A stretch of DNA of 13,906 bases from Clostridiales bacterium UBA8960. GTDB lineage: Bacteria; Bacillota; Clostridia; Peptostreptococcales; Acidaminobacteraceae. The notes beneath the pieces are model-generated. The model did not search any database. It was not told the DNA's origin and worked only from the letters and a program-made list of their open reading frames with translations. The position numbers and the translations under genes are program-made. The DNA lies in contig DMYC01000191.1 in assembly GCA_003482695.1 (NCBI GenBank), forward strand, positions 3,858-17,763, read 5' to 3'. Positions 1,359 to 9,142 of this stretch are shown here, in pieces; the first letter of the stretch is position 1; every line of letters begins with the position of its first letter.

Positions 1359-3095
1359 TTGTCACTTCAGAAGATTGTATCCAGTGTTAGGCTAATATGT
1401 GAAGCGATTGCGAGTGTGGTGAACATCGATGTGACGATCGTAGATGACCATAGGGTAAGGCTCGCAGGAACGGGGCGATATAGCGAGAGCGTCGGAGAAA
1501 TCGTCAGTGTGAATTCCGCTTTCAGCTACGCATTAAATGAAGGGCTCGGTTTTATCATAGAGAACCCTGGAGAACATCAGGCGTGTGTCAATTGTGACTG
1601 TAAAGACAAGTGCAACGAACACGCTGAAGTCTGTTGCCCGATACGGCTCGACGGAAAGACCATCGGCGTGATTGGGCTTATCGCATTTAAAGCCGAACAG
1701 AGAAAAGCATTGATCGAAAACCAGGGAAACCTTATGTCGTTTCTAGAGCGGATGGCGGATCTTATTGCGACGAAGCTTAAAGAGTTTGAGGGTCACGAGA
1801 CGCTGGAACTTCTTGCGATGGAACTTGAAGTCGTGGTGGATAGCCTAGATACAAGCCTTGTCGCCATCGATTTAAAAGGCAACATATTAAGGACGAATCG
1901 CAAGTTCAAAAAAGTCTTCTCGGGGAAAGCGACACACATCTCGCAAATTATGGATGGCGATGAATGGCGATCGGTTCTTTTGTCTAGAGAGAATGCTCGA
2001 AATCATTTTCATACATTCAGCGGTGGAGTAGAAGGCGTTTACGATCTATCGCTCATAAAAGTCAATCAATCCATTAAAGGGTATATCATCACGATCAAAT
2101 CGATGGAAGAAGTAATGAACACGGTGAACGATATGATGACAGATGCCGTAGTGACAGGATTTGAGCATATCATCGGGAACTCGGAATCTTTGCTTGAGGC
2201 GAAGGCCCTAGCTAAAAAAGTGGCAAACACGGCATCCACTGTTTTAATTCTCGGAGAAAGTGGAACTGGAAAAGAGTTGTTCGCAAGAGCCATCCACCAC
2301 TCAAGCCCTCGCAACAATGCACCATTTGTCGCCATAAATTGTGCCGCAATTCCAGATCATTTGCTTGAAAGCGAACTGTTCGGCTATGAAGAAGGCGCTT
2401 TCACAGGGGCGCGTCGCGGAGGCAAACCCGGAAAGTTTCAACTCGCAAATAAAGGGACGCTGTTTCTGGATGAAATCGGCGATATGCCGTTACATTTGCA
2501 AGCCAAATTATTAAGGGTTTTGCAGGAGAAACGTATCGACCGCTTGGGTTCGGATCATTCGATAGATGTGGACGTGCGGTTAATCGCAGCGACACACCGA
2601 AATCTTGAAGAGAAAGTGGTGGAAGGCTCATTCAGACAGGATTTGTATTACAGGTTGAATGTGATTCCAGTGATTATTCCACCTTTGAGAGAGCGTCATG
2701 ATGATATACTCATAACTGCAGAATTTCTGGTTTCAAAATGCAGCAAAAAGCTCCTGAGAGATGTACCACAGCTGACGGATTCTTTCGTGAAGATGTTGAT
2801 TGCGCACGATTGGCCAGGAAACGTGAGAGAACTTGAAAATGCCATCGAATACGCCGTCAATGTCTGTGATGACGGCATGCTTGAACCTCGCCATTTGCCA
2901 AAGAGGCTTATGTCAATGGGAATGGCATCATCAGTCGGTTCTACGATTCGTACGATTGATGCGCTTGAAAAGGAAGTCATCGCAAATGCACTCGATTATT
3001 ATGGTCGCAGTGGAGAAGGACACGAAAAGGCAGCTGTTGCGCTTGGTATAAGCCGTGCAACACTTTATAGGAAAGTGAAGCAATATCAAATTTAG
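1359..3095 (+). CDS. Sigma-54-dependent transcriptional activator (EBP) with cysteine-rich sensor domain
   Basis: This 578-residue bacterial enhancer-binding protein activates sigma-54 RNA polymerase. The central AAA+ domain is complete: Walker A GESGTGKE (299-306), the sigma-54-contacting GAFTGA loop (346-351), Walker [11 protein letters not shown] (366-375), then [10 protein letters not shown] and [11 protein letters not shown]. The C-terminus (about 555-577) is a Fis-type helix-turn-helix ending [15 protein letters not shown]. The first 140 residues form a GAF-like sensor containing six cysteines at 76, 79, 81, 85, 92 and 93 (pattern C-x2-C-x-C-x3-C-x6-C-C), followed by a PAS-like segment (about 150-240, including [16 protein letters not shown]). 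The effector is unknown. The cysteine cluster suggests metal, Fe-S or thiol sensing, which is inference. A plausible target is the sigma-54 promoter of the cysteine desulfidase at 8318-8332. A regulator/desulfidase pair of this type (CdsR/CdsB) is known to me in Clostridioides difficile, recalled from memory. There is no receiver domain, so this is not a two-component regulator. Confidence 0.93.
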
Positions 3096-4421: not shown

Positions 4422-6845
4422 ATGAAAACACATGAACCTAAGAGACTATTGAACGTGTTCGGTATTGCAGAGATGGTTCTATTCAAAGGAAATGAAGTAT
4501 CAATCAAAGTCAGAAAAGAGCCTTCTCGAGATTTGGAAAAAGATTTGATCGAGGATTCGATGTTTGCACTTGGTGTTTCGGTCAAAAAACACAGTGCGGA
4601 TACAAATTACGATGTTAAAGATTTTTATAGATTTGGGGTGCTTCTTCTGGTGAGAAGTATTGTGCTCGTAGATGATTTTTATACGATGGAAGTCAAAGCG
4701 ATTGATAAAGTTAAAGTGGATCGCTTTTACCAAACGGGCTCACTACTTAAGGCGGAGTTCGATTATGAACCGACGATCGCAGACATGGAGGGACTTCCTT
4801 ATGATGAAATGATGAAGAATATAAAAGGATTGGTCAAAGAAATCAGCATTTACTTCAAAGGCGCTGAACCTTTTGTACACTTTATAGATGAAATCGAAGA
4901 CATCGAGCTGATGGCAGGCGTTCTGCTTCAGTACATGAACATGCCCATCGATGACAAGCAGCATATTTTTGAAGCCAAATCTTATAGCGATAAAGGCCTT
5001 AAGTTGATTGACGCACTTATCAGGCAACGTGAGATGTTTGCGTTTCAAAAGGAAATGAGCGAGAAATTCTCACAGGAAGCGAATAAAAATTATAGACGTG
5101 CATTTTTAAGAGAGCAACTAAGGGCGATTCAAGAAGAACTCAATGAAGATATGCCGGAAGGCAATGCAAAAAAGGATTATCAAACGCTGATCGAAGAATC
5201 TAACATGCCGGATGATGTGAAAAAGATGGCACTCGCTGAAGCGGCCAAATTTGAAACGTTGTCGCCTCAAAGTGCTGAGAGAAGTGTCGTGGCGAATTAT
5301 TTGGATTTATTGACCGCTTTGCCTTGGGGTAAGTTTAAAGGCATTGAAATCGACATAGAAAAAGCGAGAAAAGTCCTTGATGACGACCACTATGGCTTAA
5401 AAGAAGTCAAGGATCGCATTATTCAACATTTAGCGGTTTTAAAACTCAAGAAGGAAAAACAAGGTTCCATTTTGCTTTTAGTGGGTCCTCCAGGAACGGG
5501 TAAGACGAGTCTTGGCAAGAGCATTTCCAAAGCGCTCGACCGACCTTATGTCAGAATGAGCCTAGGTGGCATTCGAGATGAAGCGGAGATTAGAGGCCAT
5601 AGGCGCACATATGTGGCGGCGCTTCCAGGTCGAATCATACAGGGCATGAAAAAAGCTGGACAAACGAATCCGGTGTTTGTGCTTGATGAGGTGGATAAGC
5701 TTCAGATTGGCAACAGCGGCGATCCAGCCAGTGCACTTCTCGAAGTGCTGGACCCTGAACAAAACAACTCGTTTGCGGATCACTATTTGGAAGTTCCCTA
5801 TGATTTGTCTGACGTGTTCTTTATTGCGACAGCGAACTCTTATAGATCGATTCCTGGACCGCTTCTTGATCGTATGGAAGTCATCGAAATATCCAGTTAT
5901 ACAAATTTGGAAAAGTTTCATATCGCGAAGGGGCATTTGATTCCGGATGTGCTTGAAGAACATGGATTAAATGAGGAGCAGCTGGTGTTTGCGGATGCTT
6001 CAATAAATGCGTTGATAGATGGTTATACACGTGAAGCGGGTGTGCGTGGGCTTAAGAGGCAGATCGCCGCTGTGGCGCGTGTCGTTTCTGAAAAGGTCGT
6101 TTTGAATCAAGTGCCGCTCCCTTATCAGGTTGAAGCGGATATGCTCTATGATTTGATCGGTAAACCTATGGCAAGGCATGATTTGGCTGGATCAAGCAGT
6201 GCGATTGGTGTCGCAACTGGACTCGCATGGACGCCTGTAGGTGGCGAAATACTGTTTATCGAAGGTTCGTTTATGCCGGGGAATGGTCAGTTGATTCTAA
6301 CCGGAAAGCTGGGTGACGTTATGAAAGAGTCTGCTAGGATTTCTCTTAGCCTCGTTAGATCGAGGTTGGCATTCCAAATCGCAGATTTCGAGTTTAATAA
6401 AAAAGACCTTCATATTCATGTGCCGTCAGGTGCGGTACAGAAAGATGGCCCGTCTGCTGGTGTAGCGCTGTTTGCATCCATTGCGTCGCTGATTTTAGGT
6501 CGACAACTCTCTTCGACTGTGGCGATGACCGGTGAAGTGACGCTGAGAGGCAACGTGCTTGCGGTCGGCGGCATTAAAGAGAAAATAATCGCCGCTCATC
6601 GAGCTGGCGTGAAGAAAGTGCTGATCCCTGAAGAAAACATGAAGGACCTCGATCAGGTCCCTGAAGAAGTGAAATCGGCACTGGAATTCGTGAAAATCGC
6701 AAATGTTGAAGACGTGATTCATGAACTCTTCGACTTGAAATTGCCAGGAAGCGAAATGGTAAGTGATCAAGGGGTCCGACCCCCTGATCAATTTGGAAGT
6801 GATCAAGGGGTCGGACCCCCTGATCATTTTGGTCCAACTTTTTAA
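4422..6845 (+). CDS. lon: ATP-dependent Lon protease with repeat-encoded C-terminal tail
   Basis: This 807-residue LonA-type AAA+ serine protease degrades misfolded and regulatory proteins in the cytoplasm. The order is: a divergent N-terminal substrate domain (1-200, lacking the usual PLR-type opening), a helical linker with YRRAFLREQLRAIQEEL, AAA+ Walker A GPPGTGKT (355-362), Walker B VFVLDEVDK, and a C-terminal protease domain. The catalytic Ser678 is in DGPSAG and Lys721 in GGIKEK. They are 43 residues apart, as in the E. coli dyad Ser679/Lys722. After a normal ending near LFDLKLPGSEMV, the frame continues through two tandem 12-residue units (SDQGVRPPDQFG and SDQGVGPPDHFG) and PTF, all encoded by palindromic repeats. 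No CIRCE or CtsR-like operator was seen upstream; a TATAAA at 4394-4399 could be a -10 without a clear -35. Function is near certain. Whether this is the housekeeping Lon or a paralogue cannot be told here. Confidence 0.95.
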   Translation: MKTHEPKRLLNVFGIAEMVLFKGNEVSIKVRKEPSRDLEKDLIEDSMFALGVSVKKHSADTNYDVKDFYRFGVLLLVRSIVLVDDFYTMEVKAIDKVKVDRFYQTGSLLKAEFDYEPTIADMEGLPYDEMMKNIKGLVKEISIYFKGAEPFVHFIDEIEDIELMAGVLLQYMNMPIDDKQHIFEAKSYSDKGLKLIDALIRQREMFAFQKEMSEKFSQEANKNYRRAFLREQLRAIQEELNEDMPEGNAKKDYQTLIEESNMPDDVKKMALAEAAKFETLSPQSAERSVVANYLDLLTALPWGKFKGIEIDIEKARKVLDDDHYGLKEVKDRIIQHLAVLKLKKEKQGSILLLVGPPGTGKTSLGKSISKALDRPYVRMSLGGIRDEAEIRGHRRTYVAALPGRIIQGMKKAGQTNPVFVLDEVDKLQIGNSGDPASALLEVLDPEQNNSFADHYLEVPYDLSDVFFIATANSYRSIPGPLLDRMEVIEISSYTNLEKFHIAKGHLIPDVLEEHGLNEEQLVFADASINALIDGYTREAGVRGLKRQIAAVARVVSEKVVLNQVPLPYQVEADMLYDLIGKPMARHDLAGSSSAIGVATGLAWTPVGGEILFIEGSFMPGNGQLILTGKLGDVMKESARISLSLVRSRLAFQIADFEFNKKDLHIHVPSGAVQKDGPSAGVALFASIASLILGRQLSSTVAMTGEVTLRGNVLAVGGIKEKIIAAHRAGVKKVLIPEENMKDLDQVPEEVKSALEFVKIANVEDVIHELFDLKLPGSEMVSDQGVRPPDQFGSDQGVGPPDHFGPTF
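6764..6790. repeat. REP-like palindromic repeat, copy 2 (in lon)
   Basis: A 27-base palindrome has left arm TGATCAAGGGGTC, central C, and right arm GACCCCCTGATCA. The arms pair except at one A/C position. Same family as the copies at 1-25 and 6800-6826. Confidence 0.85.
6800..6826. repeat. REP-like palindromic repeat, copy 3 (in lon)
   Basis: It has the same arms and orientation as copy 2 but a central G. It is identical to the reverse complement of the copy at 1-25 over all visible bases. It ends 16 bases before the lon stop codon. Confidence 0.85.
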
Positions 6846-6950: not shown

Positions 6951-8261
6951 TTATTTGACCGATGTCCTTGCCCCCATCATCACATTCAAAATCACACGAT
7001 CCACCACATCCATGGCATTCTTCGAAAGATATCCCAAATTCTTGATGGTTTCATCCGCCGTTTTTCCGATGACGCCGTTGCCGCTAGGCACGACGACATT
7101 TCCGATCGCTAAGAGCGACGACTGAATGGCAGCGGACGCAGAAGTCGCAAGTTTAAGTGAACAACCAACTTTGGCTCCATCGCAAATCATACCCGTCGTG
7201 TTGGCGATCATATTTTGAATCGCACCTTCCATCTGGATGACGGAACCACCCATTAGCCAAGTGATCGCCACGGAAGCGCCAGTTCCCGCAGCAACGCCGC
7301 AGCCACAAAGTGCCGACAATCTGCCAATATTATACTTAATGACGCTGTTCACAAGATGGCTAATCGCAGCAGCCCTTGCCAATCTATCAGGTGACGTAGG
7401 ATTGGTCTCGGCATATGCCACGATGGGCAGTAAAGCCGTCAAGCCATTGTTGCCACTCCCGTTGCTGCTCATGACAGGAAGTGAAACCCCAGACATCCTC
7501 GCATCGGAAGCCGCAGCCGTTAAAATCATCGCTCGATTCATCAAATCTCTAGACAATATACCTTTTCGCGTATTTTCTTCCAGTGTTCGCCCAACATTCA
7601 TGCCCGAATCATTTGCTAGGCCATACTCAGCAACAGCACGATTCATCTCGAACCCATCAAGCAAAAACGCCAAATCTTCAAAAGGAAGCGACTCGACAAC
7701 ACGAATAACCTCCGATAGAGGCGTCTCATAAATCGGATTCACAGCTTCATCCTCTGCACAAACAGCCTCCGCTTCAAACACCACACCAGCATGTGACTCA
7801 ACGAACACGAACTGATCGTGTCTATCCTGAATCACCGCACGGCCAAAAGCGTCTCCACAAACAACACGCGCATCGATCAACACTTTCTTATCCGTATCCA
7901 AAATACCCAGCTTTATCCGATCTTCATCTATCACTTTAAACGCACCTTCAATATCGGATTGCTTCACATGTTTAAAAACCTCAAGCCCATCATCGCTATA
8001 ACATGTAAGCAGCCCAAGAGCCGATGCAACAACAAGTCCAACTTGATCCGTACCTGGAATCCCCACAGAAAGCCCATTCTTAAAAATGTTTGGACTGACT
8101 TTAATCTCAAGCATCATGCCATCTGTCTCACGAGTTGAACCCGCCTGACACATTTCTTTCGCTTTTGCCACTGCGAGTGCCACCGCAACAGGCTCGGTAC
8201 AACCCATAGCAGGTTTTACTTCAGCGCGTAAAGTATCCACGATCACACGTTCTAAAGACAT
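6951..8261 (-). CDS. L-cysteine desulfidase (CyuA/CdsB, UPF0597 family)
   Basis: This cytoplasmic enzyme breaks L-cysteine down to hydrogen sulfide, ammonia and pyruvate. It belongs to the serine-dehydratase-alpha-like family with an oxygen-sensitive [4Fe-4S] cluster. The 436-residue product carries the family signature VKPAMGCTEP near the N-terminus (Cys21), SSNGSGNNG in the middle, LCGCGVAAGTGAS (about 317-329) and CDGAKVGC (360-367). These cysteines are where the cluster ligands are expected. Two adjacent ATGs are possible: CCTCCT at 8267-8272 (AGGAGG on the minus strand) is 5 bases from the ATG at 8261 and only 2 from that at 8264, so 8261 is preferred. Expression is probably sigma-54 dependent, judging from the promoter at 8318-8332 and the dyads further upstream. 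A role on another amino acid, as debated for E. coli YhaM relatives, cannot be excluded. Confidence 0.88.
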   Translation of the reverse strand: MSLERVIVDTLRAEVKPAMGCTEPVAVALAVAKAKEMCQAGSTRETDGMMLEIKVSPNIFKNGLSVGIPGTDQVGLVVASALGLLTCYSDDGLEVFKHVKQSDIEGAFKVIDEDRIKLGILDTDKKVLIDARVVCGDAFGRAVIQDRHDQFVFVESHAGVVFEAEAVCAEDEAVNPIYETPLSEVIRVVESLPFEDLAFLLDGFEMNRAVAEYGLANDSGMNVGRTLEENTRKGILSRDLMNRAMILTAAASDARMSGVSLPVMSSNGSGNNGLTALLPIVAYAETNPTSPDRLARAAAISHLVNSVIKYNIGRLSALCGCGVAAGTGASVAITWLMGGSVIQMEGAIQNMIANTTGMICDGAKVGCSLKLATSASAAIQSSLLAIGNVVVPSGNGVIGKTADETIKNLGYLSKNAMDVVDRVILNVMMGARTSVK

Positions 8262-8317
8262 CATATCCTCCTCATAAACCTGAAAATTACAAATAGCTTC
8301 TTTAGGACATGGTTAAC

Positions 8318-8332
8318 GCAAACGCCGTGCCA
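8318..8332 (-). promoter_or_regulatory. Sigma-54 (-24/-12) promoter of the cysteine desulfidase
   Basis: On the minus strand the sequence is TGGCACGGCGTTTGC. It matches the sigma-54 consensus TGGCACG-N4-TTGC at every defined base, with GG and GC at the required spacing. The predicted start site is near 8306, leaving about 45 bases of leader before the AGGAGG and ATG of the desulfidase gene. Confidence 0.9.
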
Positions 8333-8427
8333 AAAGTGAGTAGCCTAGGCGCATCTTATATAACCGTGTTGTTCCAATGCCTTCGGCCGCATCACAAAAA
8401 ATGAGCTATTTTAGAAAAACAGCTAGA

Positions 8428-8442
8428 ATCTCATATTGAGAA
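8428..8442. promoter_or_regulatory. Upstream activator dyad 1 (ATCTCA-N3-TGAGAA)
   Basis: ATCTCATATTGAGAA is a 15-bp dyad with one mismatch to the other two. Its centre is about 129 bp upstream of the predicted sigma-54 start site, a normal distance for an EBP enhancer. Confidence 0.7.
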
Positions 8443-8457
8443 AAAAGCGCGACAATC

Positions 8458-8472
8458 TTCTCAAAATGAGAA
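8458..8472. promoter_or_regulatory. Upstream activator dyad 2 (TTCTCA-N3-TGAGAA)
   Basis: TTCTCAAAATGAGAA is a perfect 6-3-6 dyad. Its centre is 30 bp from dyad 1 and about 159 bp upstream of the predicted start site. Confidence 0.75.
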
Positions 8473-8486
8473 TAAATTCTAAATTG

Positions 8487-8501
8487 TTCTCATTTTGAGA
8501 A
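8487..8501. promoter_or_regulatory. Upstream activator dyad 3 (TTCTCA-N3-TGAGAA)
   Basis: TTCTCATTTTGAGAA is a perfect dyad and the exact reverse complement of dyad 2. Its centre is 29 bp from dyad 2 and about 188 bp upstream of the predicted start site. With dyad 2 it could also form a 15-bp hairpin, but the three-fold repetition argues for protein binding. Confidence 0.75.
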
Positions 8502-8515
8502 TAGAATCAAAAAAA

Positions 8516-8560
8516 ATAACGCAATAGCACATGCTACTGCGTAGGTGGTATTCGCGTTAT
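8516..8560. repeat. Nested inverted repeat upstream of osmC
   Basis: ATAACGC (8516-8522) is complementary to GCGTTAT (8554-8560). Between them GCAATAG (8521-8527) can pair with CTACTGC (8534-8540) around the loop CACATG, with one mismatch. There is no T tract suitable for termination, and it matches no RNA family that I recognise. Confidence 0.5.
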
Positions 8561-8612
8561 GAGGAATAACACTTGAAATCGAACCCACATAAATAGAAAT
8601 CAATAAGGGATA

Positions 8613-8629
8613 CCCCCCCCGCTAGGGGG
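8613..8629. repeat. C8 homopolymer with CCCCC-GCTA-GGGGG hairpin
   Basis: Eight C residues (8613-8620) are followed by GCTA and GGGGG (8625-8629). This is the only long homopolymeric C tract noticed in the window; it lies about 120 bases ahead of osmC in otherwise A/T-rich DNA. The rest of 8630-8749 is A/T-rich leader; TATATATAAA near 8695-8704 may contain a -10 box, but no convincing -35 was found. Confidence 0.5.
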
Positions 8630-8749
8630 ATGTTTGTTATAGAATATCACAAAAAGTTCAAACCTTCAACTGTTTATGTTAAAATTTAATTGTGTATATA
8701 TAAATAGAATTGAAATTAATAATGAGTGATGAAAGGAAATGAAAACGAT

Positions 8750-9142
8750 ATGGATAAAAAAGAAATCAAACTTATGTTTACAAACGCCTTTGAAGGTGAC
8801 ATGATCGCACCAAAAGCGACGATTAAAATCGGCGGAGAAGAGGGTATGGTCGCACCTTATGATATGTTGTTCGGTGCACTTGGTTCGTGCCTATACTCGA
8901 CGTTCCTCGATGTCATGAAAAAAAAGCGCATCGGATTCGAGCGCTTAGAAATGGTCATAACCGGTGAAAAAAGAACAGAAATACCGACGACTCTCAAATG
9001 GGTTAAAGTTGAAGCGAAAATAGTCTCACCTGAAAAAGAAAATGGTGTTGAGCAGTCATTTAAGCTCGCGACAGAGTATTGTTCCATTTATTATACGATC
9101 TCTCAGGTCGCAGAAATGTCCTATGAAATAGAAATAATTTAA
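8750..9142 (+). CDS. OsmC/Ohr-family peroxiredoxin
   Basis: This 130-residue OsmC-like protein belongs to a family of thiol-dependent peroxidases that reduce organic hydroperoxides in the cytoplasm. The two conserved cysteines are visible: Cys47 in GALGSCL and Cys111 in ATEYCSIY. APYDMLFGALGSC is the usual central helix. Three in-frame starts exist (GTG 8726, ATG 8729, ATG 8750). The first two have no ribosome site. ATG 8750 follows AAAGGA at 8732-8737 by 12 bases, which is long, and it matches the usual family length, so it is preferred with moderate certainty. The gene runs convergently into the transporter gene and overlaps it by 4 bases at the stop codons. Subfamily and physiological substrate are not clear. 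Confidence 0.85.
   Translation: MDKKEIKLMFTNAFEGDMIAPKATIKIGGEEGMVAPYDMLFGALGSCLYSTFLDVMKKKRIGFERLEMVITGEKRTEIPTTLKWVKVEAKIVSPEKENGVEQSFKLATEYCSIYYTISQVAEMSYEIEII

Follow-up and report, generated by a model that had tools for sequence, protein, structure and literature searches.

The cysteine desulfidase gene and its sigma-54 promoter

The stretch of DNA analysed here, referred to as the window (13,906 nucleotides), contains a gene for an L-cysteine desulfidase of the CyuA/CdsB type (437 aa; minus strand, 6951-8264), a gene for a predicted CdsR-type sigma-54 activator (EBP; 578 aa; plus strand, 1359-3095), and an intergenic region (8265-8749) that separates the desulfidase gene from a divergent OsmC-family gene (8750-9142). 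A promoter, three dyads and a candidate small RNA lie within this intergenic region.

The first-pass annotation had named the gene a cysteine desulfidase, and this identification holds. Residues 6-429 of the product match two distinct PDB sequences, both named L-cysteine desulfidase (best match 9fsl, E 5.4e-37), and the protein matches Pfam SDH_alpha (E 1.9e-59), while NCBIfam at E up to 1e-5 gave no match. In CyuA of Methanococcus maripaludis (MmCyuA), as described in PMC12647591 (PDB 9fsl, whose chain numbering is two higher than that of the paper), Cys287, Cys329, and Cys336 are the ligands of the [4Fe-4S] cluster, and Cys23 and Glu25 lie near the active site. Cys320, Cys361, and Cys368 of the window's protein align with the three ligands, and Cys22 and Glu24 (in Cys22-Thr-Glu24) align with Cys23 and Glu25. 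The two proteins thus belong to the same enzyme family, with cluster-binding and catalytic residues kept; MmCyuA, unlike the window's enzyme, is archaeal, and the likeness concerns the enzyme alone. The gene is given here with the ATG at 8264, but the ATG at 8261 is better spaced from the AGGAGG at 8267-8272.

Directly upstream of the desulfidase gene and pointing at it, on the minus strand as previously annotated, is a sigma-54 -24/-12 promoter, TTGGCACGGCGTTTGC (8333-8318; positions 8332-8318 read TGGCACGGCGTTTGC and are preceded by the T at 8333). This promoter had been called consensus-perfect. The core, TGGCAC-N5-TTGC, is indeed perfect, but the next base after TTGC is G where the long -24/-12 consensus has A or T, and the wording was slightly too strong. 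The exact core occurs once in the window, with both strands searched, and on average 0.029 times in whole-window shuffles; the looser TGGCA-N6-TTGC had a mean of 0.18 in those shuffles and occurred 92 times per 20,000 shuffles of the intergenic region alone. Taken alone, the promoter match is a weak claim, suggestive and not compelling. Transcription from it would start near 8306, 42 bp before the desulfidase ATG.

The enhancer dyads and their conservation

Upstream of the promoter are three dyads, to which no strand is assigned, spaced by 29 and 30 bp. Dyad 2 (8458-8472; 13-mer 8459-8471) and dyad 3 (8487-8501; 13-mer 8488-8500) are perfect over 15 bp as TTCTCA-N3-TGAGAA, and dyad 1 (8428-8442; 13-mer 8429-8441) has one mismatch in 15 and is perfect as TCTCA-N3-TGAGA. 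The earlier description of three 15-bp dyads is therefore right as to their number and exact for two of them, while the third is perfect only over 13 bp. Its placement of the dyads about 130-190 bp upstream of the start agrees with our estimate, which puts their centres at about -129, -159, and -188. All three TCTCA-N3-TGAGA 13-mers of the window sit in this enhancer. Among 2,000 shuffles of the window, 48 contained one 13-mer dyad and none contained two or more; among 20,000 shuffles of the intergenic region (8265-8749) these numbers were 5 and 0. The dyads are not due to chance.

A scan of genome_contigs returned one relative, L001 (uncultured Clostridia bacterium OKU2, 66% identity), and we used its genome, G001, as a stand-in for the host genome. 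L001 carries TTGGCACGGCATTTGC and three perfect TTCTCA-N3-TGAGAA dyads upstream of its desulfidase gene, in the same layout as the window, and no other perfect 15-mer exists in its 2.4 Mb genome. With up to 2 mismatches allowed, the 15-mer matched 151 places in that genome compared to 73 for a reversed control; weaker matches therefore mean little. We also considered the 13-mer GCATTGGAACAAC, found between enhancer and promoter and identical in the window and G001, as an extra site. We rejected it: 16 copies are spread over 10 of 41 family genomes, and of the other desulfidase genes only that of G097 was seen to have its TTGGAAC core upstream.

The first-pass annotation had proposed a search of related genomes for the promoter and dyads, and we carried this out in two ways. 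First, a pattern of two 13-mers 12-22 bp apart was searched in 393 genomes of the order, an even sample of a larger group; it was found in 22 of them, and the reversed pattern in none (0/393). We mapped 25 loci: 23 stretches surrounding tandem-dyad places, L001, and L040, where the EBP of G001 is encoded. A desulfidase gene follows the tandem dyads in 19 of the 22 genomes. Directly upstream, 17 of these 19 also encode an EBP with 42-51% identity to that of the window; the exceptions are G001 and G118, close kin of the window. In G122 the promoter and dyads are at least 555 bp from the desulfidase start. The other three genomes (G337, G362, and G241) encode DcuC-type carriers and octopine-dehydrogenase-like proteins instead, with an EBP from a different group. 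The dyad is thus not unique to CdsR, which we counted against our reading, and two EBP groups seem to share one site sequence. Near-identical dyads stand at DcuC-type carrier/octopine-dehydrogenase-like genes at L049 5990-6033, L050 5978-6022, and L051 5994-6037.

Second, we examined 41 family genomes in a test based on gene presence rather than on dyads. Thirty contain a desulfidase gene (33 copies) and 23 contain the EBP at E up to 1e-100. All 19 genomes with both have a dyad (at most 1 mismatch) within 450 bp upstream of their best desulfidase gene, a check that for G159 rests on 195 bp upstream; G127, G150, and G156 have one-mismatch dyads only and none that is perfect. Of these 19 desulfidase genes, 18 are preceded by an exact TGGCA-N6-TTGC; the exception is that of G086, which nevertheless has dyads. 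The 14 other desulfidase copies, 12 of them in 11 genomes without the EBP and two being divergent second copies in G150 and G177, have neither dyads (0/14) nor a strict -24/-12 promoter (0/14). Fisher's exact test of 19/0 versus 0/14 gives p 1.2e-9, a value that, like the counts themselves, takes no account of kinship. The genomes show directly that the sites exist, that they are conserved, and that they occur together with this EBP and this enzyme. RpoN is encoded in 37 of the 41 genomes of this nearest family, G001 among them; of the 19 that combine EBP and desulfidase, 18 encode it. It does not discriminate, since most family genomes without the EBP have it as well. Four genomes have the EBP at the same threshold and no desulfidase gene that we found: the EBP of G123 falls inside the group of EBPs linked to desulfidase and dyads (see below), those of G180 and G189 fall outside, and that of G147 is a fragment. 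The locus in G123 (L111) encodes a CdsR-type EBP with 68% identity, and either an incomplete genome or another target would account for the missing desulfidase.

The earlier prediction of a dedicated activator, which it did not name, had set a lack of conservation in close relatives as a refuting result. The searches gave the opposite outcome and support it: promoter and dyads recur at orthologous desulfidase genes and track one EBP family, of which 1359-3095 is the likely member here. The dyads might instead serve another regulator, for example a repressor of the divergent OsmC-family gene, and lie upstream of the desulfidase promoter by accident. The region is indeed shared with the divergent gene, and repressors too typically use symmetric sites. 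However, the dyads are located between the EBP gene and the desulfidase gene in 17 genomes, a GDPD gene stands between dyads and OsmC in G118, and the dyads track the EBP in the family test, which together make a role at OsmC very unlikely.

We next describe the geometry of these enhancers, surveyed over 28 loci with promoter and dyads. The 78 sites have mostly A/T at their three middle bases; they were picked at no more than 1 mismatch, so that conservation of their arms follows from how they were chosen. Spacings are mostly 17-21 or 29-34 bp, with eight between 37 and 101, and the dyad nearest to the start has a median position of -76 compared to -129 in the window. Even spacing is common to the window and G001 (29 and 31 bp in the latter); in the window it departs from the usual 17-19 plus 31-34 bp, which we counted against its reading as a CdsR unit. 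A further explanation gives the dyads their main role in RNA, as hairpins or as transcription terminators: a 21-nt inverted repeat links two of the window's dyads, and a T run follows one dyad in the four Clostridioides-like genomes described below. Yet the intrinsic terminator found in the window is a separate hairpin followed by a T run (8519-8542, minus strand), dyad spacing is patterned, and the dyads are linked to an EBP. We regard a main role as hairpins or terminators as extremely unlikely.

The tandem dyads at L043 6060-6104 and L045 6081-6153 precede class-V aminotransferases resembling cysteine desulfurases, and those of L045 are accompanied by a -24/-12 promoter. Second sites in G186 and G153 likewise stand before class-V aminotransferases, with a likeness to SufS-type cysteine desulfurases that is below the NCBIfam cut-off. 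Such sites before cysteine-desulfurase-like genes possibly belong to a wider CdsR regulon.

The likely activator and its relation to CdsR/SigL-cdsB

The EBP encoded at 1359-3095 is assigned to the CdsR type by Pfam, the position of its homologues beside dyads and desulfidase genes, clade support in trees, and a cysteine signature. It consists of GAF, PAS-like, AAA+ (with GAFTGA), and Fis-type HTH domains, with GAF_2 just below the Pfam cut-off, and is likely the reader of the dyads. The protein search returned P0002, 84% identical to it, and, among named homologues, those of Fusibacter bizertensis (68%), F. tunisiensis (57%), and others; we therefore refer to the host as Fusibacter-type, which is an inference. 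In a tree of 51 EBPs, 30 that are linked to desulfidase and dyads, together with that of G123, form one branch (support 98/87), and eight other EBPs of G001 fall outside it. A second tree, which includes four Clostridioides-like EBPs and drops six rows (G131, G180, G189, G168b, G001x5, and G001x6, mostly long branches), places 33 linked EBPs and that of G123 on one branch (96/87). The fragment from G147 was omitted from both trees, and the EBP of G131 fell inside the linked group in the first. The window's EBP sits inside the linked group in both trees, and the EBP of G138 is slightly closer to it than that of G001.

The EBP and desulfidase genes of the window are convergent, and their ends are about 3.9 kb apart, with Lon and another gene between them. 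The same order (EAL-HDOD, EBP, hypothetical gene, Lon, desulfidase, with a convergent EBP) is found in G138 and G118, the latter with four extra ORFs. EBP and desulfidase genes are convergent neighbours in G054 and are separated by the hypothetical gene alone in G159 and G174; they are on different contigs in G001 and G080 and more than 20 kb apart in G127 and G177. G001, G118, and G138 keep the same EBP and the same sites with the EBP not adjacent, suggesting that the EBP gene moved in this clade while the enhancer stayed put. Two near-identical 26-base palindromes, GATCAAGGGGTCsGACCCCCTGATCA, occupy 6765-6826 of the window at the 3' end of the Lon gene, whose reading frame they keep, and give the Lon protein a repeated tail.

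Distance and orientation of the EBP gene raise the possibility that the unit works as described with its dyads read by a different EBP of the genome, and the other EBP group near similar dyads in G337, G362, and G241 adds to it. Against this, the trees place the window's EBP within the linked group, the EBP and desulfidase genes belong to the same neighbourhood in G118, G138, G054, G159, and G174, and of the EBPs of G001 placed in the tree only one falls in the linked group. We consider a different reader very unlikely.

The first-pass annotation had pointed to a related CdsB/CdsR system from C. difficile, and this system is indeed published. As reported in PMC5767170, cysteine induces cdsB in a manner that requires SigL, CdsR (591 aa), and the upstream region, inverted repeats are located at -190 to -179 and -211 to -200, and a promoter fragment with only 153 bp upstream has no significant activity. 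The cdsB promoter is given as ATGGCATGTATTTTGCTAT in PMC7438776, a later C. difficile study in which, under the conditions used, no control of cdsB by SigL was detected. We searched this 19-mer in the 393 genomes of the order and found it in five. Four of them (G100, G094, G115, and G105) encode a 591-aa EBP directly upstream of a desulfidase, with 44-45% and 47-48% identity to the window's EBP and desulfidase, respectively; from promoter and EBP length we infer that they are Clostridioides. The fifth, G311, differs in its genes and lacks a dyad. Dyads GTCTCAAAATGATAT and ATCTCATTTTGAGAT/C are found in the four, 18 bp apart and with 0-1 mismatches to the 13-mer, with centres at -200 and -182 of the estimated start, or about -202 and -184 relative to the published start, which lies 63 bp ahead of the ATG (counted on the printed sequence). 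These dyads lie within the required -223 to -153 stretch; one coincides with the first published repeat and the second is a few bases off.

Since the same dyads and a 591-aa EBP stand beside the published cdsB promoter in these four genomes, we assign the window's unit to the known CdsR/SigL-cdsB system, and its function is very likely alike. Both have an L-cysteine desulfidase behind a -24/-12 promoter with inverted repeats upstream, and an EBP with GAFTGA and Fis-type HTH (PMC5767170, PMC7438776). In contrast to C. difficile, where cdsR is upstream of cdsB and two inverted repeats are reported, the window has a convergent EBP gene at a distance of about 3.9 kb, and its three dyads are spaced by about 30 bp. 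Target gene, promoter, dyad sequence, and orthologous EBP all agree with the defining features of the system; gene order departs from the usual one, in which the EBP is directly upstream on the same strand. The CdsR1/CdsR2 regulons of Clostridiales (PMC6615313) likewise have predicted sigma-54/CdsR control of cdsB with an upstream site; the CdsR row there names only Clostridium and Clostridioides, and our comparison is with its description, the motif letters being in Fig. 3/Table S3. As a system the unit has low novelty; less expected are the displaced and convergent EBP gene, the small-RNA-like gene beside the enhancer, and a fourth cysteine in the sensor.

That cysteine is part of a signature in the GAF sensor (EBP residues 76-95; 1584-1643, plus strand), C76-x2-C79-x5-C85-x6-C92-[CSA]-P-I, which all 30 linked EBPs carry, as do 44 of the 46 rows of A1; among the 22 other EBPs it is found in one, that of G123. 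Since the first three cysteines also occur in 12 of the 22 others, the fourth (C92) is the clade-specific one. AlphaFold2 predicted a confident GAF-like sensor domain (165 aa, mean pLDDT 89.6; full-length EBP model 86.1, pTM 0.49). With this model, Foldseek found free methionine-R-sulfoxide reductases as best matches (E 9.7e-6, TM 0.59), with numerous other GAF domains and CodY ranking below them. A role of the sensor in sulphur-amino-acid or metal binding would be a guess from the model.

Overall, we are confident that this stretch is the enhancer-promoter of a CdsR/SigL-controlled cysteine desulfidase gene, read by the EBP at 1359-3095, a reading drawn from sequence comparison. CdsR would bind the three TCTCA-N3-TGAGA dyads as dimers, and a presumed cysteine-derived signal would reach its GAF/PAS sensor region and lead to assembly. 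The GAFTGA loop would then contact sigma-54 RNA polymerase at 8318-8333 and the promoter would open, so that desulfidase would be produced when cysteine is in excess.

A candidate small RNA beside the enhancer

Just upstream of the dyads, on the minus strand, lies a candidate small RNA (8509-8633) with the motifs AUCCCUUAUU and UUCCUC. On the desulfidase-sense strand, 8633-8509 contains a C/G hairpin, ATCCCTTATT, a second hairpin whose loop holds TTCCTC, and the intrinsic terminator. A sigma-A-like promoter, TTGAAG-N17-TATTCT (8641-8669, minus strand), precedes it. Similar RNAs are located just upstream of the dyads in G118, G138, G054, and G174, and also in G080, there without a clear terminator; in G054, G174, and G080 the TTCCTC is just before the second hairpin and not in its loop. 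At all six loci inspected, an equivalent promoter (TTG-N20-TA-N3-T) begins 30-36 nt before the RNA; counted on the window, so loose a pattern would fall in a given 20-nt slot by chance with a probability of about 0.005. Folding z-scores of the six RNAs are -3.1, -3.6, -3.8, -2.1, -2.0, and -6.1, and the lowest-energy fold of the G174 RNA loses the first hairpin. In G118 the RNA sits away from OsmC, and we therefore take the RNA to go with the enhancer.

We searched for this RNA in several ways. A model of the RNAs of the window, G118, and G138 (R1), run on 14 sources, matched G174 (E 8.7e-5) and G054 (E 5.1e-4) at the equivalent place, along with eight weaker matches (E 0.007 to 0.45) that we took as chance or partial. 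R1 gave no match at the equivalent place for G080 (L098), whose RNA is proposed from inspection by eye, fold, and promoter. Over whole family genomes R1 matched 2 of 41. A five-sequence model (R2), trained on the window, G118, G138, G054, and G174, matched 5 of 393 genomes of the order, once each, which is a lower bound because filters were strict and 9 candidates were scored per genome. G159 was the only independent find, its match being at the end of a different contig from its desulfidase gene. A 23-base pattern from the RNA matched 6 of the 41 family genomes, two exactly (G138 and G118) and four at 3 mismatches, like 2 control matches, and a DNA query from G138 found G138 and G118 only. 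Rfam 15 gave no match in the window at gathering score and nothing relevant as riboswitch or leader; at E up to 5 it gave three matches in L094, L095, L097, and L098, none overlapping the equivalent RNA.

Among the five RNA sequences, 97% of the cells of predicted pairs are paired compared to 48-60% with partners slid, and three of five pair statistics were reached by 6 of 500 shuffles. Two pairs changed on both sides, a count reached by 245 of 500 shuffles, and pair types were reached by 217 of 500. Covariation support for the RNA is modest, from an alignment that had been fitted to the structure. The C-rich palindrome at 8610-8631, at first taken to be a CsoR/CstR-type operator, is the first hairpin of the conserved RNA, just after its promoter; it could be both RNA hairpin and operator.

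The segment at 8509-8633 may be a small RNA or a conditional leader, and both are possible. As a leader, it would mean that the desulfidase gene is also read through from the sigma-A-like promoter, with leader and terminator as an attenuator, and that the sigma-54 unit is half of the control. Promoter, folded RNA, and terminator all point to the desulfidase gene and are conserved just upstream of the dyads. On the other hand, there is a strong hairpin of the terminator kind, the sigma-54 promoter lies between it and the gene, the model with its strict filters did not find the RNA in G001 or most genomes with the unit, and an independent small RNA explains the data equally well. We consider such attenuation unlikely, if deserving some weight. 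Turning to the small RNA, we find the case evenly balanced for a wider proposal: that the CdsR enhancer of Fusibacter-type bacteria comes with an adjoining small RNA gene, about 120 nt long and without Rfam match, which ends 3-38 bp before the first dyad and has two C-rich motifs, mostly unpaired, that could pair with Shine-Dalgarno sequences, and that CdsR may sense through C76-x2-C79-x5-C85-x6-C92, confined to this clade among the EBPs compared.

These data tie a motif read from raw sequence to a published sigma-54 system and provide a site consensus and geometry over 28 loci. With the likely activator named, its regulon can be scanned elsewhere, and two further sites before cysteine-desulfurase-like genes are already at hand. 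The clade-specific cysteine motif makes the signal of CdsR testable by mutation, and the conserved RNA beside the enhancer is a new lead; RNA and fourth cysteine both merit specialist attention. If the wider proposal is true, cysteine catabolism in these bacteria would be controlled through two arms, one sigma-54 and one RNA, of a single regulatory island.
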